From: Woeseiaceae bacterium
GTDB taxonomy: Bacteria; Pseudomonadota; Gammaproteobacteria; Steroidobacterales; Woeseiaceae
Assembly (NCBI GenBank): GCA_013043165.1
Contig: JABDOQ010000082.1
Location: forward strand, 96,847-160,846
Direction: 5' to 3'
DNA: 64,000 bases
The notes under the pieces are model-generated. The model was not told the origin of the DNA. It was given only the letters and a program-made list of their open reading frames with translations, and did not search any database. Positions 26,931 to 44,200 of the stretch are shown piece by piece (position 1 is the first letter of the stretch; the number at the start of each line of letters is the position of its first letter). The position numbers were made by a program, and so were the translations under genes.

Positions 26931-29408
26931 GTGGCGGAGAATCGCTGGAAAATCCACAAGTTTGGCGGCAGCAGCCTCGCTGATGCGGCCTGCTTCCGTC
27001 GCGTAGCCGGAATCGTGCTGAGCTACTCCGATGCACGCATCGGTGTGGTCGTCTCCGCCATGGGTGGCATGACCGATGCGTTGATCAACCTGGCGATACT
27101 TGCAGAGCAGGATGACGATCATTTCCTCGATCAATTGCACGCGATTGGCGAACGCTACGCGAAAACGGCGAGTGCGCTCGTGGACGGCGATCGACGCGTG
27201 TCTGTTCTGGATGCCTGGGGCCGGGACGCCGAAGACATAACCGACGTCCTGAAAGCAATTGCCCTGGTGAAATCAGCACCCAGGCGCAGTCGTGACGTAA
27301 TCGCGGGCTATGGCGAGATCTGGTCCGCACGGTTGCTGGCCGCCTGCCTTGAACAGGAAGCGCCCGAGCGGGGCGGAACCTGGATCGACGCACGCGACGT
27401 CGTAACCGTACACCAGACCGAACTGGGTCCTTCTGTCCTGTGGGAGGCATCACGAAAGAAATTTGCCGATGTAGTGCCCGAAAATTTCGCCGGCATCGCC
27501 GTGATTACCGGGTTTATCGCAACCGACGAAGACGGGCTGCAGACGACGCTCGGACGAAATGGCAGCGATTACTCGGCCGCCATTTTCGCGGCACTGAGTA
27601 ACGCCTCCGAACTCAGCATCTGGACCGACGTTGACGGCGTTATGAGTGCCGATCCGCGCCGTGTACCCGAGGCGCAGGTCATCGATGAGCTTACCTATAA
27701 CGAAGCGATGGAGCTGGCGTACTTTGGTGCCAATGTCATCCACCCCCAGACGCTCGGGCCCGCTATTGACAGCGACATTCCCGTCGTTATCCGCAGCAGC
27801 CACAATCCATCGCACCCGGGCAGCCGCATCGGCAAGCAGGCCGAGCGGGTTGAAAATATCAAAGGCATCACGGCGATCGGCGGGATGGCGCTCGTCAACC
27901 TCGAAGGCTCGGGGATGATCGGCGTACCGGGTACGGCGGATCGACTTTTTGCGGCGCTCAAGAATGCCGGTGTCTCGGTGACGTTGATATCGCAGGCCAG
28001 TTCGGAACACTCGATCTGCATCGCGGTGCCGGAGGATGTGGCAGAACGGGCAGGAAAAGTGATAACCGCAGCGTTCGCCGACGAACTTGAGAGCGGCCAG
28101 ATCCAGAGCGTAGAGGTTACAAAGGCGCAGAGTATTGTCGCCGTGGTTGGCGACGGCATGGCGGGCACGCCAGGCATTGCAGCGCGGTTTTTTGGCACGC
28201 TGGGGCGTGCCGGCATCAACATTCGCGCGATCGCGCAGGGTTCTTCAGAGCGCAATATTTCGGCCGTGGTCGATTCCGAAGATGCCACCAGGGCGCTGCG
28301 CGCGGCGCACTCCGGTTTTTACCTGTCTGCCAAAACGCTTTCAATCGGACTGATCGGCCCGGGCACGGTTGGCACGTCGCTACTGCGCCAGATCGAAAAG
28401 CAGGCGCAGCGGCTTCACGATGAATTCAACCTGGATCTTCGTGTCCGTGCTATTGCCCGCTCGCAAACGATGTTGCTTGGGGATCGTAGTATCGACCTGG
28501 CGCGATGGCAGCAAGACCTGGCTGAAAGCGGTGCCGCTTGTGATCTCGGCAAGCTGGAGGCACATATCAATCCGGATCACCTGCCGCACGCAGTCATCAT
28601 CGACTGCACGGCGAGCGAGCATATTGCCGGCCGGTATTCGGGCTGGCTGGAGCGCGGCATCCATATCATCACGCCAAATAAAAAAGCATTCAGCGGACCG
28701 TTCGAAAACTACGTCGCGCTGCGCGAGAGCGCTGCGCACGGCAACTCGCATTGTTTTTATGAGACGACCGTTGGTGCTGCCCTGCCAATTATCACGACGT
28801 TGCGAGACCTGATTGATACGGGTGATGAAGTACACCTGCTGCAGGGCATCTTCTCGGGGACGCTCGCGTATCTCTTCAACGTCTACGATGGCACGACGCC
28901 CTTTTCCGAAATCGTCCGTACCGCGCGCACCAGCGGCTACACTGAACCGGATCCCCGTGACGATTTGTCCGGCATGGACGTAGCCCGCAAGCTGACGATC
29001 CTGGCGCGGGAGCTCGGACAGACGATCGAGATAGGTGATTTTCCGGTGCAGAACCTCGTGCCGGAACAGCTGCGTGATTGCAGCCTGGAAGAGTTCCTCG
29101 ATCGCTTGCCCGAGGTTGATGCCGACATGAAAGCGCTCTATGAGACAGCGCAAGAGAAAGGTGAGAAACTGCGATACGTCGGCCGCCTCAGCGCTGACGG
29201 GACGGCTACGGTCGGGCTCGCTGCCGTCGGTTCCGATCATGCGTTCAGCAACATCAACCTCACCGACAACATTGTGCAATTCGAAACGGACCGTTATTCG
29301 GCGAACCCGCTTGTCGTTCAGGGACCCGGAGCAGGTCCGGAAGTGACGGCCGGCGGCGTATTCGGCGACCTGCTGCGCCTCGCGCAATACCTCAGCTCGG
29401 GAGCATGA
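26931..29408 (+). CDS. thrA: Bifunctional aspartokinase / homoserine dehydrogenase
   Basis: This enzyme carries out the first and third steps of threonine synthesis from aspartate. The 825 residues resemble E. coli ThrA in length. The kinase domain starts with WKIHKFGGSSLAD, two ACT-like regulatory segments follow in the middle (VNLEGSGMIGVPGTADRLFA; VAVVGDGMAGTPGIAARFF), and the dehydrogenase domain has the NAD-binding IGLIGPGTVGTSLL and the catalytic-region KKAFSGP and DPRDDLSGMDVARKL. Start is GTG at 26931. Threonine feedback control is expected from the family. Confidence 0.97.
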   Translation: MAENRWKIHKFGGSSLADAACFRRVAGIVLSYSDARIGVVVSAMGGMTDALINLAILAEQDDDHFLDQLHAIGERYAKTASALVDGDRRVSVLDAWGRDAEDITDVLKAIALVKSAPRRSRDVIAGYGEIWSARLLAACLEQEAPERGGTWIDARDVVTVHQTELGPSVLWEASRKKFADVVPENFAGIAVITGFIATDEDGLQTTLGRNGSDYSAAIFAALSNASELSIWTDVDGVMSADPRRVPEAQVIDELTYNEAMELAYFGANVIHPQTLGPAIDSDIPVVIRSSHNPSHPGSRIGKQAERVENIKGITAIGGMALVNLEGSGMIGVPGTADRLFAALKNAGVSVTLISQASSEHSICIAVPEDVAERAGKVITAAFADELESGQIQSVEVTKAQSIVAVVGDGMAGTPGIAARFFGTLGRAGINIRAIAQGSSERNISAVVDSEDATRALRAAHSGFYLSAKTLSIGLIGPGTVGTSLLRQIEKQAQRLHDEFNLDLRVRAIARSQTMLLGDRSIDLARWQQDLAESGAACDLGKLEAHINPDHLPHAVIIDCTASEHIAGRYSGWLERGIHIITPNKKAFSGPFENYVALRESAAHGNSHCFYETTVGAALPIITTLRDLIDTGDEVHLLQGIFSGTLAYLFNVYDGTTPFSEIVRTARTSGYTEPDPRDDLSGMDVARKLTILARELGQTIEIGDFPVQNLVPEQLRDCSLEEFLDRLPEVDADMKALYETAQEKGEKLRYVGRLSADGTATVGLAAVGSDHAFSNINLTDNIVQFETDRYSANPLVVQGPGAGPEVTAGGVFGDLLRLAQYLSSGA

Positions 29409-29409
29409 C

Positions 29410-30351
29410 GTGAGTGACACCATTACGGCATTTGCACCGGCATCGATCGGCAACGTCGCCGTCGGATTTGACATGTTGGGACTGGCACTGACGAATGTTG
29501 GCGACCGCGTTCAGGCACGCAAAATAGACGGCACGAATGTCACGCTCGCCGAGGTGCGCGGACTTGACGGTGAAATTCATCCCTATCTCTCGACCAACGT
29601 CCATGAGAACACAGCCTCGATCGCGGCCCAGGCCTTATGGAACGAGCACGGCGCTGCCTGCGGCGTCGAGCTGAAAGTCCACAAGGGTGTGCCGCTGCAG
29701 TCCGGTATGGGCAGTTCGGCCGCATCCGCAGTTGCAGCAGTCGTGGCCGTCAATGCCTTGCTCGAGGCACCGCTGCCCGCCGAGGCTTTGCTCGTTTACG
29801 CGCTGGAGGGTGAAAAATATGCGAGCGGTGGCCTGCACGCCGATAACGTGGCGCCCAGTTTGCTCGGCGGCCTGATCCTCTGCCCGCAGGTACTGCTGCC
29901 AGACGTTGTCAGGCTGCCGGTACCTGACGGGGTCAGCGCCGTGTTATTGCATCCGGACCTGCAGGTAAATACGGCCCATGCGCGCCGGCGCCTGGCGAAG
30001 AGTTACTCGATGGCGCAATGGCTGGAACAGCAAGGCCTGCTCGCCGGGTTTATCGCAGCCTGTGCCGCCAGTGATATCGATTTGATCAGGAAGACGCTGC
30101 GTGACGTCATCATAGAGCCGCAGCGATCTGCAGCCGTACCCTGTTTTGCGGCTGTCACCGAAGCCGCCAAGCGCGCCGGGGCGCTCGGCTGCAGCCTGTC
30201 CGGCAGCGGTCCGAGCATTTTTGCATTTTGTGCGGAAAGCGAAGCCCGAAACGTTGCGAGCGCGATGGAGCACGCCTGTCGACAGCAGGGTATCGGCTGC
30301 CAGTCTTGGGTTAGTCCGATGACGGCGCCAGGCGCGCGCGTCGAGGATTGA
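29410..30351 (+). CDS. thrB: Homoserine kinase
   Basis: A GHMP-family kinase that phosphorylates homoserine, the second-last step to threonine. The 313-residue protein has the ATP loop PLQSGMGSSAASAVAAVVA (about 97-115), the N-terminal FAPASIGNVAVGFDMLG and the C-terminal LSGSGPSIFAF. It starts with GTG two bases after the thrA stop and lies in the classic thrABC order. Confidence 0.96.
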   Translation: MSDTITAFAPASIGNVAVGFDMLGLALTNVGDRVQARKIDGTNVTLAEVRGLDGEIHPYLSTNVHENTASIAAQALWNEHGAACGVELKVHKGVPLQSGMGSSAASAVAAVVAVNALLEAPLPAEALLVYALEGEKYASGGLHADNVAPSLLGGLILCPQVLLPDVVRLPVPDGVSAVLLHPDLQVNTAHARRRLAKSYSMAQWLEQQGLLAGFIAACAASDIDLIRKTLRDVIIEPQRSAAVPCFAAVTEAAKRAGALGCSLSGSGPSIFAFCAESEARNVASAMEHACRQQGIGCQSWVSPMTAPGARVED

Positions 30352-30353
30352 GC

Positions 30354-31655
30354 ATGCAGTATTTCAGTACTCGCGGGGATGGTCCGGTCAGCCTCGATGA
30401 GGCATTGCAGAAGGGTATCGCGGACGACGGCGGGTTGTTTCTTCCGCAGCAGCTGCCTTTTTTTGAGGCCGGCGATTTTGACGACGCCGATTCCATACCG
30501 CAGGTCGCTGAACGTTTACTACGGCCGTTTTTCGTCGGCTCAGGCCTTGAAGACGCGCTTGAAGAAATACTCGCTGAAACCTTCAGTTTTCCGATTCCTT
30601 CAACCCCACTGCCGGCCGCCGGTCGTGCGCTGCTGTTGCTGGAGCTCTATCACGGCCCGACCGCGGCGTTCAAGGATGTGGGTGCCGGATTTCTCGCCGC
30701 CTGTTTATCGCGTCTCGAAAGTGACGAGGACTCGCCGCTAACGATTCTGGTGGCAACATCAGGCGATACCGGCGGCGCCGTTGCGGCGGCGTTCGACGCC
30801 CGACCCGGCATGCGGGTGGTGGTGCTGTTTCCGGACGGTCGAGTCTCCGACCGCCAGGCACATCAACTGTGTTGCTGGAGCGACAATGTAGTGTCTCTGA
30901 AAGTGCAGGGATCGTTCGATGACTGCCAGGCATTGGTCAAGGCAGCGATGGCGGACCCGCAATTGGCCGCTGCTCACCGTTTCAGTTCTGCAAACAGCAT
31001 CAACATTGGTCGGCTATTGCCGCAAAGTACCTATTATGCGGAGTCGAGCCTGCGACATTACCGGCGCACCGGCAACAAACCCGGGTTCATTATTCCAACG
31101 GGGAATCTTGGCAACGCTTTCGCCTGTATCATGGCGCGCGAGATGGGCCTGCCGATAGGCCCGGTCATTCTCGCGACAAATGCGAACCGTACCATCGCGG
31201 ATTACTTTGAAACGCTGCAGTGGCTCCCGCGCGCGAGCCTGCAGACGCTGGCGTCTGCGATGGACGTGGGTGACCCGAGCAATATGGAACGGCTGCGCAA
31301 GCTGGTGGGCGAAGCGGACGTGCTCCGCGAGCGGCTCGGCGTACTGTCGGTCAGCGATGCCGAAATCGAGACGGCGATCCGTCAGGACTACAGTGAGTTC
31401 GGATTCGCAACCTGCCCGCACACGGCGACGGCAACCCACACCTGGCGTCATCTTGATGACGAAGTGGCGAGCGCGCACGACTGGATCCTGGTTGGCACGG
31501 CACATCCGGCCAAGTTCGAGACGATTGTAGAACCCATCATTGGTGAAATCGTGCCGCTGCCTCCGGAGCTGGCGGAAATACTGGCGAGGCCCGCACATTC
31601 GATCACAATTGAAGCGGATCTCAAGTCGCTTGCCACTGCCATTGGCGGCGCTTAG
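30354..31655 (+). CDS. thrC: Threonine synthase
   Basis: A PLP enzyme converting phosphohomoserine to threonine. The PLP lysine lies in ELYHGPTAAFKDVGAGF, the phosphate-binding loop in ATSGDTGGAVAAAF, and the N-terminus is MQYFSTRGDGPVSLDEAL. The start is the ATG at 30354, two codons after the track start, which lies in the thrB stop. Last gene of the operon, 433 residues. Confidence 0.97.
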   Translation: MQYFSTRGDGPVSLDEALQKGIADDGGLFLPQQLPFFEAGDFDDADSIPQVAERLLRPFFVGSGLEDALEEILAETFSFPIPSTPLPAAGRALLLLELYHGPTAAFKDVGAGFLAACLSRLESDEDSPLTILVATSGDTGGAVAAAFDARPGMRVVVLFPDGRVSDRQAHQLCCWSDNVVSLKVQGSFDDCQALVKAAMADPQLAAAHRFSSANSINIGRLLPQSTYYAESSLRHYRRTGNKPGFIIPTGNLGNAFACIMAREMGLPIGPVILATNANRTIADYFETLQWLPRASLQTLASAMDVGDPSNMERLRKLVGEADVLRERLGVLSVSDAEIETAIRQDYSEFGFATCPHTATATHTWRHLDDEVASAHDWILVGTAHPAKFETIVEPIIGEIVPLPPELAEILARPAHSITIEADLKSLATAIGGA

Positions 31656-31685
31656 GATAATTGCTGGGAAGAGATCTCCAACTTG

Positions 31686-32267
31686 ATGCCGGAATTCCTA
31701 CAACTCGAATCAAGGCCCTGGCTGCTACCGGCACTCGCCGTGCTGTTACTGCTGTTGGCCTGGCTGCTTTACCGGTTTGTTCGTAGCAGACGCAATTCGT
31801 TGCGGCAGGCGTTCAAGGAAATCAGTTTTGAGCGCATTGAGGGCCTTATCATCCCCAGCGCAGATGAGGGTGAAATTCAGATCGATCAACTGCTGCTGAC
31901 CTCGAAGGGTCTTTTGATCGTCGATATCAAAGACGTGCAGGGCACCGTTTTCGGCAGCGACAAGATGCAGGACTGGGCCGTTATCAGTGACGAGCGCCGC
32001 TACACCTTCTCGAATCCACAGCCCATGCTTTACGATCGCATAGCTGCCGTGCGACAGGTCGTCCGCCAGGTTCCAGTCGCGGGGCGAATACTTTTTCTCG
32101 ACGGTGCTGAATTCACCAAGGGCATCCCCGGACTCGTTTGCACGCTCAATGATCTCGTCGAAGAGTTTGGCGAGCCCGACAAGAAGGCGGCCAAGTTCAA
32201 AATCGAGGCTTTCCGGCCACACTGGGAGCTCATTCAAGAGGCGGCGATAAGCTCCACCAGCCGCTAG
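31686..32267 (+). CDS. Membrane-anchored NERD-domain protein
   Basis: The 193-residue product has one N-terminal membrane helix (WLLPALAVLLLLLAWLLYRFV, about 10-30) and then a domain resembling the nuclease-related NERD fold: IDQLLLTSKGLLIVDIKDVQGTVFGS, with a DIK that fits the D/E-x-K nuclease core, and later GRILFLDGAEFTKG. NERD domains are often predicted nucleases without shown activity. The ATG at 31686 is preferred to the TTG one codon earlier. It lies 30 bases after thrC and may be read with it. Confidence 0.7.
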   Translation: MPEFLQLESRPWLLPALAVLLLLLAWLLYRFVRSRRNSLRQAFKEISFERIEGLIIPSADEGEIQIDQLLLTSKGLLIVDIKDVQGTVFGSDKMQDWAVISDERRYTFSNPQPMLYDRIAAVRQVVRQVPVAGRILFLDGAEFTKGIPGLVCTLNDLVEEFGEPDKKAAKFKIEAFRPHWELIQEAAISSTSR

Positions 32268-33064
32268 CTATCCGGTAAACCGAAAAACCGAATCGCATTG
32301 CGCGTCGTTATTCTGGCCACGTGGTCGATGCTCTGGCCGCGCGCTTCGGCAACGGTCTTCAGCACTTCCGGCAGATAGCCCGGCTCGTTGCGGCGGGTCC
32401 CGGGTTTGGGCCGGATGGTTCGCGGCAGCAGGTACGGTGCGTCGGTTTCCAGCAGCAGCCGATCGTCAGGGATGACGGGGACAATATCGTGCAAATGCTG
32501 ACCGCGCCGCTCATCGCAGATCCAGCCGGTGATGCCAACGTACAGTCCCATAGCAACGTATTCGTGCAGCGACTCGCCTTCGCCCGTAAAGCAATGTGCA
32601 ACAGCCCTCGACAGGTCGGGCATGGCCGGTTCGAGCACCTCAATGAAATCGTCGTGTGCGTCACGTTGATGCAGGAAGACCGGCAGACCGCAGTCCATAG
32701 CGATTTCGAGCTGTCGGCGGAACGCGTCGAGCTGCGCCTCGCGCGGTGAGAAATTTCGATAGTAGTCAAGTCCGCATTCGCCGACGGCCACGACGGCATC
32801 TTTCTTGACCAGTTTGCGGATCAGGGCATCGCTTTGCTCGCTGTAGTCGGAAGCATGGTGCGGGTGTACACCTGCCGTCGAATACAGGATGCCGGGTCTC
32901 GACTCGGCGAGCGCGGCGGCTTTGACGTTGCTGTCGTCGCTGCTGCCGGTCACGATTATCCTGGCGACGCCGGCGTCGGCTGCACGCTGCAGAATTGCGT
33001 CCCGATCTTCATCGAAGCTGTCATGCGCAAGGTTCGCGCCAATATCTATCAGGGAGTAGCTCAT
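32264..33064 (-). CDS. TatD-family metal-dependent hydrolase / DNase
   Basis: A TIM-barrel hydrolase of about 266 residues with the TatD metal-ligand pattern: GVHPHHA, AVGECGLDYYR, LHQRDAH, AHCFTGEG and ETDAPYL. The N-terminal metal motif normally HxH is here DIGANLAHDSF, as in TatD proper, which has N-L rather than H-x-H in many members. Family members act as 3'-5' exonucleases or D-aminoacyl-tRNA deacylase-like hydrolases. It lies 14 bases downstream of the ABC permease, probably in one transcript. The stop overlaps the convergent NERD gene. Confidence 0.92.
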   Translation of the reverse strand: MSYSLIDIGANLAHDSFDEDRDAILQRAADAGVARIIVTGSSDDSNVKAAALAESRPGILYSTAGVHPHHASDYSEQSDALIRKLVKKDAVVAVGECGLDYYRNFSPREAQLDAFRRQLEIAMDCGLPVFLHQRDAHDDFIEVLEPAMPDLSRAVAHCFTGEGESLHEYVAMGLYVGITGWICDERRGQHLHDIVPVIPDDRLLLETDAPYLLPRTIRPKPGTRRNEPGYLPEVLKTVAEARGQSIDHVARITTRNAIRFFGLPDS

Positions 33065-33078
33065 ATCATTTCAACCGC

Positions 33079-34101
33079 CTAGTACTGACCCCATCGAAAC
33101 ACCCTGGCGCCGATGCCGATGAAAACCGCGCTCAACGCCGTGAGCGCAAGCAGGCTCGGCGCTACGTCACCGAGCGTTGCGCCATCCAGCATCACCGAGC
33201 GCGCGGCATCAAGGACGTGCGTCAAAGGAAAAATCCTGGCCAGGTTCTGCACGAACGAACCCGCACCTTCCAGTGAGAACCAGACACCCGACAATAACAT
33301 CATCGGCCAGTTGACCATGTTCAACAACCCGCCGGCGAGTTCTTCGCTCGTGACCCGTGCAGAAATGATGAGGCCCAGCGACACCATCGAAATTGCGCCG
33401 ACAATTGCAACCAGGAACAGTGTGAAATAACTGCCCTCCATTCGTGTGTCGAGAATCATGTGAGTTGCGGTGAAGACAATCACGGTAATACATGTGATCA
33501 GGACCATGCGCGATGCGACCTGCGCCGAGATAAACTCGAATGATGTGAGCGGCGTTGCACGCAGCCGTTTCAGGAAACCGTTCTTGCGGTAGCGAACGAC
33601 TACGTAGCCAACCCCGAACATGCAGCTGAACATCATGTTCATGCCGAGGATGCCCGGCAGTACCCAGTCGGCGTAGCGAATCGCTGCACCCGTAATTTGT
33701 TCCTTTTCTATCGTTGCTGTTGCCAGTGCATCGGACTGCAGCAACGCCAGCTCGGCAAAGTAGCCTTTGGATGAATCGGGGTTAACCCAGTAGCGGGGCG
33801 CATCGCCAAACTCAACGAGCAGATCGAGCTGATGTCGCGAAACTTTTCGCAACGCATCGTCTTTATCCCGGGTTGGCACGAAACGCATGTAGCGTGTGTC
33901 AAGAAACGGATGCTGTTCGGTTACGATGACGTCGCTGTCCTGGAGTACACCGACCGTGTAGGCATTGCGGTCGCCACCCAACGCGAACGACAGGCCAAAT
34001 ATCAGCACTACGGGCAACAACATGTTCCAGGCGAACGAGGCTTTGTCACGAAGAAATTCTCGATTGCGGCCCTGGAAAATTGCGTAGATACGTCTGAACA
34101 T
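33079..34101 (-). CDS. ABC-2 type transporter permease
   Basis: A 340-residue integral membrane subunit with one N-terminal helix (MLLPVVLIFGLSFALG), a large extracytoplasmic domain of about 130 residues, and five C-terminal helices ending before a short tail, the layout of the ABC-2 / DrrB-YhhJ type exporters. The C-terminal signature region PMMLLSGVWFSLEGAG is present. It lies four bases downstream of its ATPase gene. The exported substrate is unknown. Confidence 0.9.
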   Translation of the reverse strand: MFRRIYAIFQGRNREFLRDKASFAWNMLLPVVLIFGLSFALGGDRNAYTVGVLQDSDVIVTEQHPFLDTRYMRFVPTRDKDDALRKVSRHQLDLLVEFGDAPRYWVNPDSSKGYFAELALLQSDALATATIEKEQITGAAIRYADWVLPGILGMNMMFSCMFGVGYVVVRYRKNGFLKRLRATPLTSFEFISAQVASRMVLITCITVIVFTATHMILDTRMEGSYFTLFLVAIVGAISMVSLGLIISARVTSEELAGGLLNMVNWPMMLLSGVWFSLEGAGSFVQNLARIFPLTHVLDAARSVMLDGATLGDVAPSLLALTALSAVFIGIGARVFRWGQY

Positions 34102-34105
34102 TGTC

Positions 34106-34990
34106 TCAGGCCCGCAGTGAATGGCCGGTCAGGTCAAGAAACAGGTCTTCAAGATTGGGCTGTCGGATTTTGATGTGGTTCAGGTTTGTAACGTGCGGTG
34201 AGAGCTGCTGAAGGCTGGAACCGACGTCGCTTGTCACGACTTCGACGATGCCCAGTTTCTCGTGCACGGTGTGTTCTATCTGTCCCAGGTCGTCGGTCAG
34301 GTCGCTGATCGGCAGTTCGATGATTAGCCCCTGGTAGCGCTGGCGCAGCAGCTCATTCGGCGACCCCTGTGCAATGATTTCGCCGGCGTCCATGATTGCG
34401 ATGTCGTCGCAAAGCACCTGTGCTTCGTCCATGTAATGGGTTGTTAATACGATCGATGCACCTTCTGCACGGATGCTTTGCACGAGGTCCCAAAAATTTC
34501 GGCGGGCCTGTGGATCGAGCCCGGTGGTCGGTTCATCGAGAAAAACAAGGCGCGGCCGGTTTACCAGCGCGACGGCCAGAAGCAGGCGTTGGCGTTGACC
34601 ACCGGAGAGCTTTCGATTATCCCGATCCAGCAAGTCGCCCAGTGAGCATTGCTCGATAATATGGTCCAGGTCCGCCTTGCGATCGTACAGTGCCCGGAAC
34701 ATCTGGATGGTTTCGCGGACCGTGAGGAAATCCTGCAATGCCGTGTTCTGGAACTGAATACCGGCTTCCTGGCGAAACCGGGTACCGGCCGGCTCACCGT
34801 AGTAGCAGACCGCTCCCGAAGTGGCCGATATCACGCCTTCTATGATTTCCACCGTGGTCGTTTTGCCAGCGCCATTGGGTCCCAGCAGCCCGAAACAGAC
34901 CCCCTCGGCGACGGAAAAGCTGACGCCATTGACGGCGATTACACCAGGGTATTCCTTGACCAGATCACGGGCTTCGAGGACGGTTGTCAT
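34106..34990 (-). CDS. ABC transporter ATP-binding protein (drug/export type)
   Basis: The ATPase partner of the adjacent ABC-2 permease. Walker A is GPNGAGKTTTVE, the signature is LSGGQRQRL, Walker B is RLVFLDEPTTGLD and the H-loop is VLTTHYMDEAQ. A C-terminal domain of about 85 residues follows, as in DrrA/CcmA-like exporters. The ATG encoding MTTVLEARDLVKEYPG (34990) is chosen; the track adds 15 residues that are not conserved. It is first in the operon with the permease and tatD, and divergent from the VNG-repeat gene. Confidence 0.94.
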   Translation of the reverse strand: MTTVLEARDLVKEYPGVIAVNGVSFSVAEGVCFGLLGPNGAGKTTTVEIIEGVISATSGAVCYYGEPAGTRFRQEAGIQFQNTALQDFLTVRETIQMFRALYDRKADLDHIIEQCSLGDLLDRDNRKLSGGQRQRLLLAVALVNRPRLVFLDEPTTGLDPQARRNFWDLVQSIRAEGASIVLTTHYMDEAQVLCDDIAIMDAGEIIAQGSPNELLRQRYQGLIIELPISDLTDDLGQIEHTVHEKLGIVEVVTSDVGSSLQQLSPHVTNLNHIKIRQPNLEDLFLDLTGHSLRA

Positions 34991-35090
34991 CGCGGCCAAG
35001 AGTACCGGACGCAGGCGTGGGCAGCCACCTTGCAACCAAACGGCGATTTGCGGTATCTAATTGACAAGAACGGAAATAAGGGTCCGGAAA

Positions 35091-35816
35091 ATGTCCAGAA
35101 CTGTCACAAAAACGACTTTTACAATCGCTTTGTTGCTCATGCTAATGGCGGTCCCGGCACTGGGAGCCACGGTCAACAAGAGCATCAAGATCGAAGCCAA
35201 TAGTGAAGCGGGCGGCGCGACATCGGTAAACGGCAGTATTTCCATTGGTGAGCGCGCCGTTGTAACGGGTAACGTCAAGACGGTCAACGGCACCATTCGA
35301 GTCGACACCGGTGCGTCGATCGAAGCAGCGTCGACGGTGAATGGAAGCGTCAGGCTTGCCGCCGGCGTGCAGAGCGAAAGCCTGAACACGGTAAACGGCT
35401 CGATCAAGGTCGGTGAAAACGCGGCCGTCGATGGCGAGATTCAGGCCGTCAACGGGCGCATCACTGTCGACAGCGGCAGCACCGTTGCGAACGACGTTAG
35501 CAACGTGAATGGGCAGATTGAGCTTGTTGGCACCGAAGTCGGCGGGAACCTCAAAACAGTCAATGGTGACATCACACTCGAACAGGAATCCGTTGTCAAA
35601 GGCGACCTTTTTGTTGAGAAAAACAGCGGTTGGGGCTGGGGCAAGTCCAGGAGCCGCAAGCCACGCATCATCATCGGCCCCGGTTCGCGTGTCGAAGGCA
35701 AGATCATTCTCAAGCGCGAGGTCGAGCTATTCATTAGCGATACCGCCGAGGTGGGTGGTGTCGAGGGTGAAATGAGTATGGATGATGCCGTTCGTTTCAG
35801 TGGAGATCGTCCATAA
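35091..35816 (+). CDS. Exported VNG-repeat beta-solenoid protein, unknown function
   Basis: A 241-residue exported protein. The start is the ATG at 35091, giving MSRTVTKTTF and a signal peptide ending near VPALGA. The mature part contains seven VNG units (SVNGSI, TVNGTI, TVNGSV, TVNGSI, AVNGRI, NVNGQI, TVNGDI) about 20 residues apart, separated by short GA/VxG turns, suggesting a right-handed beta-helix like polymer-forming bactofilins or DUF4097-type repeats. A tryptophan/glycine-rich insert (SGWGWGKSRSRK) breaks the series, and the end (RVEGKIILKREVELFISDTA) resembles bactofilin strands. Function is not known. Confidence 0.72.
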   Translation: MSRTVTKTTFTIALLLMLMAVPALGATVNKSIKIEANSEAGGATSVNGSISIGERAVVTGNVKTVNGTIRVDTGASIEAASTVNGSVRLAAGVQSESLNTVNGSIKVGENAAVDGEIQAVNGRITVDSGSTVANDVSNVNGQIELVGTEVGGNLKTVNGDITLEQESVVKGDLFVEKNSGWGWGKSRSRKPRIIIGPGSRVEGKIILKREVELFISDTAEVGGVEGEMSMDDAVRFSGDRP

Positions 35817-35877
35817 GGCCAGCCCATAGCTTCAGGCCCGTAGATGCATTGCGTGACAATTCAGTAGAATAGGCGCT

Positions 35878-36633
35878 GTGCGAAATACCGCTACTCAATT
35901 GCCGCTGTTCTCAGAGGTTGATGAGCCCGACTCCGCGTCGGGCTTTTCCGTACGTGAAAGCGGCCGTGCCCGCCGCCTGTCGATAAAGGTATTCCCTCGC
36001 GGGCGCGTGGAAGTAGTAGTTCCGAGGCGCACGCGGCCCGCCGATGTCCGGGAATTCGTCGAGGCACACCGCGACTGGATTCGGCAGGCCCGGGCCTCGT
36101 TTGCCGCAGATCACCCGCCCGAGCCTTTCGCTCTGCCAGAAGTTGTGACACTCAGCGGCATCGCTCAAGAGTTCGCCGTGCACTACGAGCCCGAACGAGG
36201 CGCAAGAACCGTGCGCTACCGGACTCGCAACGGCGCCGTGGTGCTGTGCGGCCATACGCGAGATGAAAAACTCTGCGTGCAGGCATTGAAACGCTGGCTG
36301 ACGAATCTCGCAAAGCGGGAGTACGCACCGCGTCTGCGGGCGCTGTCCGGGTTGACCGGCAACTCCTTTAAAAAGATGCACGTGCGCGGCCAGCGGACCT
36401 GCTGGGGCAGCCATTCGAGCACAGGAACCATTTCACTGAACTTCTGTCTGTTGTTCCTGGATCCCGGGCACCTGCGCTACGTCATGATTCACGAACTTTG
36501 CCATGCAAGGCACATGAATCATTCGCGGCGCTTCTGGAGCCTGGTCGCGCGGTTCGAGCCGGACTACCGACAGCTGGACAAAGACCTGAATGGCAGTTGG
36601 AAACGGATACCGACCTGGGTCGGCATTTACTAG
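35878..36633 (+). CDS. YgjP-like metallopeptidase-domain protein (DUF45)
   Basis: A 251-residue protein with a zinc-peptidase motif IHELCHARHMNHSRRFW (about 202-218), where the HExxH and downstream His supply ligands. The N-terminal half has VRESGRARRLSIKVFPRGRVEVVVPRR, typical of the YgjP/WLM-related family. The segment HVRGQRTCWGSHSSTGTISLN is also characteristic. Start is GTG at 35878. Proteolytic activity of this family has not been clearly shown. It stands alone between the solenoid and porin genes. Confidence 0.88.
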   Translation: MRNTATQLPLFSEVDEPDSASGFSVRESGRARRLSIKVFPRGRVEVVVPRRTRPADVREFVEAHRDWIRQARASFAADHPPEPFALPEVVTLSGIAQEFAVHYEPERGARTVRYRTRNGAVVLCGHTRDEKLCVQALKRWLTNLAKREYAPRLRALSGLTGNSFKKMHVRGQRTCWGSHSSTGTISLNFCLLFLDPGHLRYVMIHELCHARHMNHSRRFWSLVARFEPDYRQLDKDLNGSWKRIPTWVGIY

Positions 36634-36721
36634 CATTTCGGATTCGGACTATTGACTTCACTGCGCATGGCGCATCAACCTTGCGTTCCGTGACCTTCAA
36701 ACAGAAACAGAGGAAGACAAA

Positions 36722-38068
36722 ATGCGTGGCTTGCTTGCGCTCATCGTTGTGACGCTATTTTTCGCCGGTTTTGGCAGTGCCGAGGCACAGGAGTCGGAAA
36801 TTGAAGCACTGCGGGCCGCAGTCGAGCAGTTGCGAGCTGATTACGACGCGCGCATTGCGGAACTGGAGCGCAGGCTGGCTGTCGCCGAACAAAGCGCGAT
36901 GCAGGCGAAACGCACCACTCAATCGACCAAAGGATTGCAAGCCGGCACGCCGGCCGGCAATACCGGCAGTTCGGCATTTAATCCCGCGATCGGCGTTATC
37001 TTTCAGGGACAAGCCTGGAATTTCAGCAGGAATCCGGACGACTACGCGATACCGGGTTTTCCGTTTGGTGGTGAGGCCGGCCCGGTCGATGAGGGCCTGG
37101 GCATTGGAGAAACCGAACTTATCCTCAATGCCAACGTCGATGACAAGTTTACGGCCTGGCTGACCGTGGCGCTGGCACTGGAGGATGGCGAGTCCGTTGT
37201 TGAAATAGAGGAGGCGTGGGTCGAGGCGACGGCGCTTCCGGCCGGGCTAGGCATGAAGTTCGGGCGATTCTTTTCGGGGATCGGCTACCTGAACAGCAAA
37301 CACTCGCATACCTGGGACTTTGTGGATCAGCCGCTGCCATACCAGGCTTTTCTTGGCGACCAGTTTCTCGACAACGGGCTGCAGTTTCGCTGGCTGGCGC
37401 CGACAGACCTGTACATGGAGTTTGGTGGTGAGGTTTTCCAGGGTAGCCGATACCCGGCAGGAGGTAATGCGGACTCGGGATTCGGCAGCTACAGCCTGTT
37501 CGCAAAATTCGGCGGTGATGTTGGTGCCAACAGCAGTTGGCTGGCCGGCATCTCATATCTGGACGCGACCGCCATCGATCGTCCTTCAGGCGATGAGGAC
37601 GATCCACTCGTTTTCAACGGCGATTCCCAACTCACCGGCGCCCAGTTCGTCTGGAAGTGGTCGCCAAACGGCAACTGGAAACAAAAGAATTTTGTATTTC
37701 AGTCGGAGTTCTTCTGGCGCAGTGAAGACGGCAACTATACGTTGCCGGGCGGTACGCCTTTGCTGTACGACGTTGATCAGACCGGGTGGTACGCGCAGGC
37801 TGTGTACCAGCCGGTTCCGCGCTGGCGTTTCGGCGGACGAGTCGATGGCTTGTCCACGGACAGCCCCGGCCCATTATTTGATGACTCAGTCCTGTCGCGG
37901 CCGGGCAGTAACCCTATGCGTTACAGCATGATGGCCGACTGGTCCAACAGCGAATTCAGTCGTTTGCGGCTGCAGTTCACGCGAGACGAGGCGGGGCCCC
38001 TGGATGACACGCAGTGGGGTATTCAATACATACACAGCATTGGTGCCCACGGCGCTCACGCTTTCTAG
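36722..38068 (+). CDS. Outer-membrane porin-like protein linked to a metal ABC system
   Basis: A 448-residue protein with a signal peptide (LLALIVVTLFFAGFGSAEA), an N-terminal coiled coil (SEIEALRAAVEQLRADYD to RRLAVAEQ, about 23-60) and then a long beta-barrel-like region rich in aromatic strand ends, finishing in HAF with a terminal phenylalanine. The coiled coil may form a trimer stalk, as in OprO/OprP-like porins. It lies 11 bases upstream of a zinc-type binding protein gene and is probably in the same transcript, so metal passage or binding is plausible but not shown. Ribosome site AGAGGAAGAC precedes ATG. Confidence 0.75.
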   Translation: MRGLLALIVVTLFFAGFGSAEAQESEIEALRAAVEQLRADYDARIAELERRLAVAEQSAMQAKRTTQSTKGLQAGTPAGNTGSSAFNPAIGVIFQGQAWNFSRNPDDYAIPGFPFGGEAGPVDEGLGIGETELILNANVDDKFTAWLTVALALEDGESVVEIEEAWVEATALPAGLGMKFGRFFSGIGYLNSKHSHTWDFVDQPLPYQAFLGDQFLDNGLQFRWLAPTDLYMEFGGEVFQGSRYPAGGNADSGFGSYSLFAKFGGDVGANSSWLAGISYLDATAIDRPSGDEDDPLVFNGDSQLTGAQFVWKWSPNGNWKQKNFVFQSEFFWRSEDGNYTLPGGTPLLYDVDQTGWYAQAVYQPVPRWRFGGRVDGLSTDSPGPLFDDSVLSRPGSNPMRYSMMADWSNSEFSRLRLQFTRDEAGPLDDTQWGIQYIHSIGAHGAHAF

Positions 38069-38079
38069 GGGCGCTGCGG

Positions 38080-38982
38080 ATGACCAGAACGATTTGTGTG
38101 TTTCTGTTTGCCCTGATGCCGGTTATCGCCGTCGCGGACCTTGAAATATTCGCCTGCGAACCCGAGTGGGCGGCTCTGGCGAAAGAAATCGGCGGGTCAC
38201 ATGTCAATACCTTTAGTGCGACGACGGCGCTGCAGGACCCGCACTACATCCAGGCGCGACCGAGCCTGATCGCCAAAGTCCGGCGCGCGAACCTCCTGAT
38301 CTGCAGCGGTGCGCAACTGGAAATTGGCTGGCTACCCGCGCTGCTGCAAAAAGCGAACAATCGCAAGGTGTTGCCGGGATCGAATGGCTACATGGAGGCC
38401 AGCGCCTACGTCGTGCGGGTCGACGCTACCGGCAATGTTGATCGTGCGCAGGGAGATATTCATCCCGAAGGAAATCCGCACATTCAGACCGACCCACACA
38501 ACATTGCCGCCGTGGCCAAGCCGCTTGCCGAGCGACTGATGTCGCTCGATCCTGAAAATGCTGCCGCATACGCGGCCGGTCTCGAGGACTTTCTCGGCCG
38601 CTGGCACGATGCGATCGAGACCTGGGAGGCGCAAGCCAGGATATTGCGCGGTGCAAGAGGGATCACGCACCACAAGTCGTGGGTTTACCTCGAGCGCTGG
38701 CTCGGTATCGAAGAGGCTGCCAATCTGGAGGCCATCCCGGGTTTGCCGCCAACGGCAACACACCTGAGTCGATTGACGAAGCAATTCGAACAAGGTGGTG
38801 CGGACTTCATCATTCGCTCCCCGTACCAGGACGCCCGGCCCTCGGAGTGGTTGTCGGAAAGAACCGGTATTCCGGCAATCGTCTTGCCGCTGACGGTCGG
38901 TGGTACCGAGCGGGCGCAGGACCTGTTCTCGTTGTATGACGACATTGTTGATCGCTTGCTAACGGCCAGCAAGCATGAGTGA
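38080..38982 (+). CDS. Zinc/manganese ABC transporter substrate-binding protein (ZnuA-like)
   Basis: A periplasmic cluster A-I metal-binding protein. The start is the ATG encoding MTRTICVFLFALMPVIAVAD (38080), which gives a clean signal peptide; the track extension is in the porin end. Metal ligand candidates are the histidines in LQDPHYIQARP, NPHIQTDPHN and THHKSW plus an acidic residue near the C-terminus. The histidine-rich loop of E. coli ZnuA is absent. It overlaps the permease gene by eight bases. The metal cannot be told from sequence. Confidence 0.88.
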   Translation: MTRTICVFLFALMPVIAVADLEIFACEPEWAALAKEIGGSHVNTFSATTALQDPHYIQARPSLIAKVRRANLLICSGAQLEIGWLPALLQKANNRKVLPGSNGYMEASAYVVRVDATGNVDRAQGDIHPEGNPHIQTDPHNIAAVAKPLAERLMSLDPENAAAYAAGLEDFLGRWHDAIETWEAQARILRGARGITHHKSWVYLERWLGIEEAANLEAIPGLPPTATHLSRLTKQFEQGGADFIIRSPYQDARPSEWLSERTGIPAIVLPLTVGGTERAQDLFSLYDDIVDRLLTASKHE

Positions 38983-39739
38983 GCTTGTTGACTGGACGAT
39001 TGTCGGACCGGCCATGTTTGCTGGTTTGATTGTCCTGAGTACCCATGTCCCGCTGGGTCAGGAGGTGCTGAAACGCGGCATCATCTTCATCGATCTCGCC
39101 ATTGCACAGGTGGCCGGCCTGGGCGTCATTGCCGCACACACAATGGACTGGGACCCTGAAGGTATGCAGGTGCAGGTGGCTGCCGTCAGCGCCGCGCTTA
39201 TCGTTGCAATAGGGCTGAACTGGACAGAGAAACGGTGGCCGCGAATCCAGGAACCGCTGATCGGTATCGTTTTCATCCTGGCAGCGACTGGCGGAATTTT
39301 GTTATTGGCAGGTAATCCGCACGGCAGCGAGCACCTCAAGGAGCTCCTGGTCGGCCAGATTCTCTGGCAAACCTGGTCGTCATTGCTGCCGATCGCGGCA
39401 CTCTATGCCGTTGTGTTGCTCTTGTGGAATGCCTTGCGCGCCCGACTTGGTGCCCTGATCTTTTACGTGGCGTTTGCCGTCGTTGTAACGGCGTCAGTGC
39501 AGATCGTTGGCATCTACCTGGTGTTCGCAAGCCTGATCATCCCGGCGCTGGCGACGACCGGGATTCGTAAAGGCAACCGACTGGCCGCCGGCTACCTGAT
39601 TGGCGTCGTCTCATATTTCACCGGTATCGCGACGTCGGTGCTGCTGGACCTGCCGACCGGCGCCGTCATCGTCTGGAGCATGGCGCTTGTAGCATTGCTC
39701 GTGGGCTTCTTTATCTCGGACAAACGCGCGGCTGGTTAG
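38975..39739 (+). CDS. Metal ABC transporter permease (ZnuB-like)
   Basis: An inner-membrane permease of 254 residues with seven or so helices of the ABC-3 family (for example MFAGLIVLSTHVPLGQEVLKRG, IFIDLAIAQVAGLGVIAA, VFASLIIPALATT). The segment FIDLAIAQVAGLG matches the family FxxHALxxxxxxG region with His changed. The ATPase expected for this transporter is not in the operon or elsewhere in the window. Downstream is a convergent DUF2333 gene sharing the stop region. Confidence 0.88.
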   Translation: MSELVDWTIVGPAMFAGLIVLSTHVPLGQEVLKRGIIFIDLAIAQVAGLGVIAAHTMDWDPEGMQVQVAAVSAALIVAIGLNWTEKRWPRIQEPLIGIVFILAATGGILLLAGNPHGSEHLKELLVGQILWQTWSSLLPIAALYAVVLLLWNALRARLGALIFYVAFAVVVTASVQIVGIYLVFASLIIPALATTGIRKGNRLAAGYLIGVVSYFTGIATSVLLDLPTGAVIVWSMALVALLVGFFISDKRAAG

Positions 39740-40737
39740 CCCTGGTCGAGCAGGTCGCGAAGATTGATTACGGCCGCATTGGCGCGTGCCAGGTAGTTGG
39801 CCATGACCAGCGAGTGGTTGGCAAACAAACCGTAACCACCACCGTTCAGGACAAGCGGTGAGCGCAGCGGATCGAGGCTCGCTTCCAATTCGCGGATGAT
39901 TTGCCGTACGCTGACTTCGGCGTTTTTGTCGGCCAACACGTGTGCAAAATCGAATTCGGCGGCACGGAAGAAGTGTACCAACGCCCACGCCGTACCGCGT
40001 GCTTCGAAAAAGATATCGTCGACTTCGAACCACGAGGTCCTGACATTCACGGTATCCGGCTGCGCGCCGGCGGCTTCCGCGGCCGGCTCACCGGCAAGGT
40101 CGTCATTGATGCGGTTGCTGGCGACGCTGTCTCCGAGTCGTCGTGTCAGGCTGCCGAGGCGCTTCTCTACCTGCGAGAGCCATTCGCGGAGATTGTCGGC
40201 GCGTGCGAAAAAATGCGTATCAGGATCGCCGGATGCGAGGCGTTCCCGATATTTTGAGAAGCCTTTGATAGCATCGCGATACTCGGATTCCGTGGCCGGA
40301 AGAATCCAGGAATCATTGTCGAAAAAGAATCTTGGCTCAGCCGCGGCAACATCTTCGTCTTCTTTCGACTGAGATTGGCTGCGGCTGTAATCGTTGCGGA
40401 TGACGCGGGCGAGGTCGCGCACCTGCTGCAAGACCCCGTATTCCCAGTTCGGGATATTGTCGAGAAACACATTGGGCAATATTTTGTCGTTGGTCAGGTA
40501 GCCGCCGGGTTTCTCCAACAGTGTCTCGGATACGCGGATAAGCGTGTCGGCTGTCGAGAACCCTACAATTGCAGAGTCCGGGTCCGCCGGCCGGTTGACC
40601 CAGAAAACATCGGGTTCGCGCGAGAACCAGAAGCCGAATACGAACATGACGAGCAAGAATACGCCGAGTGACCAGCTGCTGATTCTTGTCCATTTCTGGG
40701 TTGCCAGTATGCTATCGGCGGAACGTTTCATCGGCAT
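39736..40737 (-). CDS. DUF2333 family membrane-anchored protein
   Basis: A conserved gammaproteobacterial protein of unknown function, 333 residues, with an N-terminal membrane helix (ISSWSLGVFLLVMFVFGFWF) and a periplasmic domain. Family-typical stretches are ETLLEKPGGYLTNDK, PNVFLDNIPNWEYGVLQQVRDLARV and YGLFANHSLVMANYLARANAAV. It lies downstream of the sirtuin gene on the same strand. Confidence 0.85.
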   Translation of the reverse strand: MPMKRSADSILATQKWTRISSWSLGVFLLVMFVFGFWFSREPDVFWVNRPADPDSAIVGFSTADTLIRVSETLLEKPGGYLTNDKILPNVFLDNIPNWEYGVLQQVRDLARVIRNDYSRSQSQSKEDEDVAAAEPRFFFDNDSWILPATESEYRDAIKGFSKYRERLASGDPDTHFFARADNLREWLSQVEKRLGSLTRRLGDSVASNRINDDLAGEPAAEAAGAQPDTVNVRTSWFEVDDIFFEARGTAWALVHFFRAAEFDFAHVLADKNAEVSVRQIIRELEASLDPLRSPLVLNGGGYGLFANHSLVMANYLARANAAVINLRDLLDQG

Positions 40738-40759
40738 ATTCTCCGGTGTGGGACAAGGC

Positions 40760-41533
40760 TCAGGTAGCCAGTGATTCTACCAGTTCCGGCAGTACAACTC
40801 CGGCGTTGCCGGCTATTGCAAAGTCGTAGGTCTCAGAGTTCAGCGTGGGATTGGGATTGATCTCGGCCACGATGGCGTGGGTTTCCCTTGCGACGTCGGC
40901 CAATCCGGCAGCCGGGTAAACCAGTGATGAAGTGCCTATCGACAGGAATACGCTGCAGTCGGCTGCCGCCGCGAACGATTGTTCCAATGCTTCATCAGGA
41001 ATAGCCTCGCCAAACCAGACCACGCCGGGACGCAGGTTGGCACCGCAATTCGGGCACACAGGCACTGCCGCTTGCTGATCGTTTACAACGACGCAGCCTT
41101 CAGCATGACATCGATCATCGAACAGGTTGCCGTGAAATTCGATAACGTCGCGACTGCCGGCTCGCTGGTGCAGCCCGTCGACGTTCTGCGTCACGAGCGT
41201 CAAACGTGGCACCAGCTCGGCCAGCCGCACGAGGGCGAGGTGACCGGGATTTGGATTGGCTGCTGCAACGAGTTCACGGCGCCAGCGATACCAACGCCAG
41301 AGCAGCTCCGGATTTTCTTCGAATGCCTCCGGTGTCGCGAGCTGGTGCGGGTCGTATCTGGCCCACAAACCCTTTTGAGCGTCCCGAAAGGTCGGCACGC
41401 CGCTCTCGGCGGAGATGCCGGCGCCGGTCAGCACACACACGTTGCGTGCATCGCGCAGCGCTGTGATTAAACCGGGGTCGTACCGAGATTTCTCGAAAGG
41501 AACTTCGGTTCGACCCCGGTCAGACGCCCTCAT
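40760..41533 (-). CDS. cobB: NAD-dependent protein deacylase, Sir2 family
   Basis: A sirtuin that removes acyl groups from lysines using NAD. Motifs are VLTGAGISAESGVPTFRDA, TQNVDGLHQRAGS, catalytic His in IEFHGN, and a zinc site formed by RCHAEGC and CPNCG. A YxxR pair (YRWR after ENPELLWRW) matches the Tyr/Arg of class III sirtuins that prefer succinyl or malonyl lysine. The start lies 3 bases after the acnA stop on the same strand, so the two are likely co-transcribed. Confidence 0.9.
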   Translation of the reverse strand: MRASDRGRTEVPFEKSRYDPGLITALRDARNVCVLTGAGISAESGVPTFRDAQKGLWARYDPHQLATPEAFEENPELLWRWYRWRRELVAAANPNPGHLALVRLAELVPRLTLVTQNVDGLHQRAGSRDVIEFHGNLFDDRCHAEGCVVVNDQQAAVPVCPNCGANLRPGVVWFGEAIPDEALEQSFAAAADCSVFLSIGTSSLVYPAAGLADVARETHAIVAEINPNPTLNSETYDFAIAGNAGVVLPELVESLAT

Positions 41534-41536
41534 TTA

Positions 41537-44200
<2,664 letters not shown>

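Follow-up and report, generated by a model that had tools for sequence, protein, structure and literature searches.

Introduction

Three described systems are among the closest to the protein analysed here. Bactofilins are cytosolic and form filaments independently of nucleotides; their core of about 110 amino acids is a right-handed triangular beta-helix whose coils measure about 18 residues. Unstructured terminal regions flank this core (PMC12448750). The Toastrack domain, in which DUF4097 was unified with DUF2154 and DUF2807, was predicted in the reference survey to be intracellular, and docking by its long faces has been proposed (PMC11237479). The C-terminal domain of LiaX, which is built of beta-strands, reportedly inhibits LiaFSR, and protein–protein contact is the probable means (PMC10269926, PMC11601895); docking by long faces has been proposed for this domain too (PMC10269926).

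The stretch of DNA that we analysed (the window) comprises 64,000 nucleotides and comes from a genome of 3.19 Mb, the named relatives of which are Woeseiaceae MAGs. In marine sediments, Woeseiaceae rank among the most common bacteria. The window carries a gene for a protein with VNG repeats that is present in most of the Woeseiaceae genomes searched, is strongly constrained and is covered by no curated family. The encoded family resembles two solenoid groups, Toastrack and bactofilin, which are themselves without a direct match to each other in our analysis.

Results

The VNG gene and its seven repeats

The VNG gene is complete (35091..35816, plus strand, as are all protein features given below) and encodes 241 amino acids between an ATG start and a TAA stop. 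A sequence-only reading of the window had reported seven VNG units about 20 residues apart, and all seven were recovered. They start at residues 46, 65, 83, 101, 120, 139 and 157, with spacings of 19, 18, 18, 19, 19 and 18 residues; the predicted solenoid has seven coils of 18–19 residues (residues 42–180; 35214..35630). In 100,000 shuffles of the same residues, with periodicity not required, the mean VNG count was 0.27 and the maximum was 5. Several positions within the triplets are invariant in 66 homologues: V65 and G67 in unit 2 (residues 65–67; 35283..35291), N84 and G85 in unit 3 (residues 83–85; 35337..35345), N121 and G122 in unit 5 (residues 120–122; 35448..35456) and G141 in unit 6 (residues 139–141; 35505..35513). 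Units 1 (residues 46–48; 35226..35234), 4 (residues 101–103; 35391..35399) and 7 (residues 157–159; 35559..35567) are defined by their residue positions. The units differ in their codons (GTAAACGGC, GTCAACGGC, GTGAATGGA and others), and because of this variation we infer that the repeat is kept by selection at the protein level and does not stem from a recent DNA duplication. The 66 homologues share no conserved Cys/His/Asp constellation; Gly, Asn and hydrophobic residues make up most of their invariant positions. An Rfam search of positions 29000–41600 and a plasmid search gave no match.

The dN/dS ratios against the two nearest orthologues were 0.115 and 0.085 over the whole gene, which indicates strong purifying selection. 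A match at E≤0.001 was obtained in 38 of 60 related genomes, and at least 31 genomes of its genus carry orthologues that are 52–92% identical over nearly the whole length. In a scan of named genomes, the family was found in Woeseiaceae, in Luteibacter, Dokdonella and other Rhodanobacteraceae/Lysobacteraceae, and also in a Steroidobacteraceae MAG, Wenzhouxiangella and two Acidobacteriota MAGs. Sampling of the phylum yielded 18 positive genomes among 399, belonging to three families besides the window's own genome.

Export signal, loop and C-terminal module

Residues ~1–25 (35091..35165) read as a Sec signal peptide without a lipobox cysteine. Judged by eye, the N-terminus (MSRTVTK..FTIALLLMLMAVPALG/A) has a Sec-type layout with a K/R n-region, a hydrophobic core and a PALG/A cleavage motif; AlphaFold2 placed a helix of low confidence at residues 6–19. 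The sequence-only reading had also proposed a signal peptide. A search for VNG-repeat proteins with signal peptides, suggested along with that proposal, brought up an exported family, some members of which are lipoproteins: every homologue whose N-terminus is readable has either a signal peptide or a lipobox. The lipobox is found in homologues from Acidobacteriota, Wenzhouxiangella, Steroidobacteraceae and several further families, and is absent from those of Woeseiaceae, Luteibacter and Dokdonella. About five changes between lipobox and plain signal peptide fall on the tree, at least three of them on supported branches. In the literature that we searched, no report on lipoproteins annotated as polymer-forming cytoskeletal protein was found.

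The solenoid is followed by an aromatic/basic loop (residues 178–190; 35622..35660; NSGWGWGKSRSRK). The W/G-rich insert noticed in the sequence-only reading is real (SGWGWGKSRSRKP, residues 179–191), and it is predicted to be disordered, with a pLDDT of ~57 that falls below 50 at residues 183–186. Its dN/dS was the highest in the protein (0.63 and 0.23 against the two nearest orthologues, for a short stretch). Of the 58 non-lipoprotein members, 53 carry a Trp in the loop, as do 5 of the 17 lipoproteins; the loop has a mean net charge of +3.7 in non-lipidated versus about +1.2 in lipidated members; these counts follow the tree and are non-independent, and the independent switches are too few for a statistical test. 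The direction of the counts would fit membrane attachment that alternates between the lipid and the loop. We treat this as a lead and not as a result, because one independent contrast alone has well-supported branches.

The C-terminal module (residues 191–241; 35661..35813) consists of further, non-VNG coils and ends in an aromatic-x-G-x-x-P signature. Eight of its residues are invariant among 66 sequences (G196, G203, L213, A219, V221, G222, G226 and G238), and position 236 is always F or Y, so that the end signature reads (F/Y)xGxxP. Against the nearest orthologues, the module had the lowest dN/dS in the protein (0.047). The end of the protein had been described as unusual and acidic. It is mildly acidic, with nine D/E versus four K/R in the final 34 residues, but the acidity is not conserved, whereas (F/Y)xGxxP is.

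Predicted structure

With the 66-sequence alignment as input, AlphaFold2 predicted the fold with a mean pLDDT of 88.4 and a pTM of 0.84. Residues 30–240 form a beta-solenoid, mostly in blocks of pLDDT 94–97, and the last 20 residues are ordered (pLDDT 84–93); the VNG core modelled alone (residues 27–180) reached a mean pLDDT of 93.3. VNG triplets 2, 3 and 4 lie within long strands of 14–15 residues with tight turns between them. The beta-helix suspected from the repeat pattern is therefore predicted with confidence.

With the full-length model, Foldseek gave no PDB match below E 0.15, and a search of PDB and viral models gave nothing below 0.06; the VNG core had no PDB match below E 0.05. The best geometrical matches of the core were the SufB/SufD beta-helix and phage tail-fibre beta-helices (1vh4, 2zu0, 9rkv), with TM scores of at most 0.57, E-values of 0.06–0.3 and unrelated sequences, and we take them as a general beta-helix likeness. 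Ribosomal protein L10, the sole PDB match of a single-sequence search (E 0.1), was judged a chance match. The coil length of the model resembles that of bactofilin, and no bactofilin was among the best 50 PDB matches listed for either the full chain or the core.

Relationship to Toastrack, bactofilin and LiaX

The VNG protein belongs to a real, exported family that lies outside every curated family cut-off. Members, i.e. the window protein and 66 aligned homologues, have an export signal, about seven VNG-type coils and the module IGPxxxVxGxIxxExxVxLYxSxxAxVGxxxG. With Pfam, bactofilin (PF04519) scored 23.8 bits against a gathering cut-off of 27.9 and was missed. DUF4097 (PF13349) scored 22.8 bits (22.7 in the genome scan) and just missed its cut-off of 22.9; its match spans only model positions 83–185 of 247 and leaves the N-terminal part of the model unmatched. 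The confident assignment to a well-described family such as DUF4097, with known function, that the sequence-only reading had envisaged as its refutation was thus not obtained. The NCBIfam model for LiaX (NF038025) was matched at model residues 361–426 of 512 with E 2.6e-10 and 39.6 bits against a cut-off of 350.

We compared the VNG family by hhalign with profiles from the window's order, representing bactofilins, exported DUF4097 proteins and, as a control, LpxA. The E-values were 2e-06 for bactofilin, 1.8e-10 for DUF4097 and 0.008 for LpxA. After removal of signal peptides, DUF4097 still matched with E 2.2e-08 and a score of 60.5 versus 15.9 for the reversed control; bactofilin scored 42.0 versus 30.7, and LpxA did not stand out. 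Because the LpxA hexapeptide profile reached a probability of only 4.9%, the matches to DUF4097 and bactofilin exceed general beta-helix noise. The bactofilin and DUF4097 profiles did not match each other. Taken together, the profile comparisons place the VNG family among exported solenoids that are nearer to Toastrack than to bactofilin and belong to neither by curated score. With Toastrack it has in common (T)V(S/N)G-type repeats, the beta-helix class and a homologous repeat core; it differs in its own C-terminal signature and in the lack of an adjoining PSP, Lia or sigma partner in the neighbourhoods examined. A family of lipoproteins from another gammaproteobacterial family (L143–L146, L150) is much closer (profile E 5e-42). 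It has the same VNG-type coils and a LERPVEL-like segment, but carries a lipobox and lacks the terminal aromatic-x-G-x-x-P.

The main rival to a Toastrack-like role is that of an exported bactofilin, the solenoids of which would join by their ends into a filament in the periplasm or at the cell surface; from outside the membrane, this filament would pattern the cell wall. The coils of 18–19 residues match the bactofilin coil length, bactofilin ranks first among the Pfam families matched by the set (31 of 66 members with E≤0.01), and a weak profile similarity, strongest at residues 101–216, as well as the envC neighbourhood in Xanthomonadales would be consistent with such a filament. However, the Pfam match of the window protein is below cut-off, the profile score is modestly above its reversed control, and neither fold search listed a bactofilin among its best 50 PDB matches. 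Moreover, the VNG protein differs from bactofilins in being exported and in having seven VNG coils plus extra coils, its terminal segment is ordered and conserved, and its own genome encodes three ordinary cytosolic bactofilins, separate from the VNG gene. Exported bactofilin identity is thus weakly supported, the bactofilin-like label of the sequence-only reading does not hold as it was given, and we consider the filament rather unlikely. As the genome encodes an exported DUF4097 protein in addition to the three bactofilins, the roles of these proteins and of the VNG protein are presumably separate.

A LiaX-type regulator of envelope stress, in which the solenoid would keep a sensor inhibited and be displaced upon an insult to the envelope, is quite improbable in our judgement. 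All 66 family members match part of the LiaX model, and in the same genome an exported DUF4097 relative adjoins an ECF sigma factor and a 182-aa possible anti-sigma factor (L165:1492-3555, contig C95). Yet the score is far below the LiaX cut-off and the N-terminal helical, sensing part of LiaX is absent. Unlike LiaX, the VNG protein comes from Gram-negative lineages with no liaYZ-like neighbours seen, and genes for a sigma factor, a kinase, PspC or a LiaF-like protein adjoin the VNG gene neither in the window nor in the neighbourhoods examined elsewhere.

Gene neighbourhood

The downstream neighbour in the window is a gene with a YgjP-like metallopeptidase domain (PF01863; 35878..36633, plus strand; 155.5 bits), which directly follows the VNG gene in 45 of 46 judgeable Woeseiaceae loci with a median match-end gap of 24 bp. 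The pairing recurs beside a 37%-identical VNG paralogue in two genomes that belong to a different family (L035, L036). Since YgjP lacks an evident export signal, it is not an obvious periplasmic partner. On the other side, a divergent gene for an ABC transporter ATPase (ABC_tran; 34106..35035, minus strand) is present in 31 of 44 loci. We rejected the transporter as an obligatory operon partner, since tatD takes its place in the other 13.

Several minor features were noted around these genes. The L035 and L036 genomes (G043 and G056) each carry two distant VNG paralogues, the more divergent of which lies directly before the YgjP-like gene. In a 1.5 Mb genome of the same genus (G004), fragments of a decayed VNG gene (L049:4880-5300) are left between an intact YgjP-like gene and the divergent ABC ATPase gene. 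About 110 bases past the VNG stop codon, within the first part of the YgjP frame, a perfect hairpin (GCCCGAC-TCCGC-GTCGGGC) is followed by TTTT (35925–35950, plus strand); it could act as an attenuating terminator or could be a coincidence of the coding sequence. Further downstream (36722–39739, plus strand) lies a gene for an exported protein of 448 aa that has no Pfam match, followed by znuA- and znuB-like genes. In related genomes (L041, L042, L044, L050), these genes move together as one block.

In Rhodanobacteraceae/Lysobacteraceae and two further families, the surroundings are different. The VNG gene adjoins gpmI-envC in 16 of these genomes, in divergent orientation and often with an M28 peptidase gene next (L096, L098–L101, L109, L114, L116, L130–L132, L134–L138), and it precedes an M28 peptidase gene in 12. 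In seven genomes, six of them Luteibacter, it lies beside gpmA. No neighbour is common to all lineages, as YgjP, EnvC/M28 and the Wenzhouxiangella neighbours differ. The proximity of EnvC, a murein hydrolase activator, and of an exported peptidase gives at most a hint of a role in the cell envelope. The conserved adjacency to gpmI-envC and to the M28 gene would also agree with a protein that regulates or holds a cell-wall or periplasmic peptidase, such as an EnvC-type M23 factor or the M28 peptidase. Nevertheless, gpmI-envC is a stable gene pair on its own, E. coli included, and this placement is seen neither in the Woeseiaceae loci nor in Luteibacter, which has gpmA instead, nor in Wenzhouxiangella. 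We therefore give this explanation a low likelihood.

Discussion

Export, repeats, fold class and constraint of the VNG protein are shown or well supported by the results above. By analogy with Toastrack, we see about an even chance that it is an exported, non-enzymatic beta-solenoid that serves as a rigid docking scaffold of the cell envelope, most likely in the periplasm or at the outer membrane. Judging from the register of the repeats, VNG would occupy the same place in each coil, and its Asn and Gly could line up from coil to coil as a stacked ladder and so stiffen the rod. The C-terminal aromatic-x-G-x-x-P may fold over the end of the rod as a cap, which would leave the protein a monomer or small oligomer. 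Lipoprotein members would be held at a membrane by their lipid anchor, the others possibly by the Trp/basic loop, and the long faces of the solenoid would bind proteins of the envelope, with cell-wall or proteolytic factors as plausible candidates. Such a protein resembles known envelope scaffold domains and does not involve a new principle.

In a bolder version, the widespread family would form a scaffold on the outer face of the inner membrane or on the outer membrane, as a periplasmic counterpart of bactofilins. Lipid and Trp/basic loop would be interchangeable means of its attachment, and it would position enzymes that act on the cell wall or in proteolysis, EnvC-type factors for instance. 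We give this version a slim chance. A ligand- or ice-binding solenoid that acts through a regular Thr/Asn face is extremely unlikely: the weak profile matches (PDB 5uyt, E 0.028; Pfam Ice_binding in 2 of 66 members) are not significant and are common to many beta-solenoids, and the Luteibacter and Dokdonella members would have no evident need for it.

The occurrence of Toastrack-type repeats with signal peptides in the Woeseiaceae lineage is of interest, as an intracellular location had been predicted for the domain in the reference survey (PMC11237479). The function of the VNG family is testable in the cultivated Luteibacter and Dokdonella members. A separate observation concerns a 1414-residue open frame in another genome (G021:C7:139742-140116), which has two bactofilin-like stretches above the Pfam cut-off and is unusually long for the bactofilin type.
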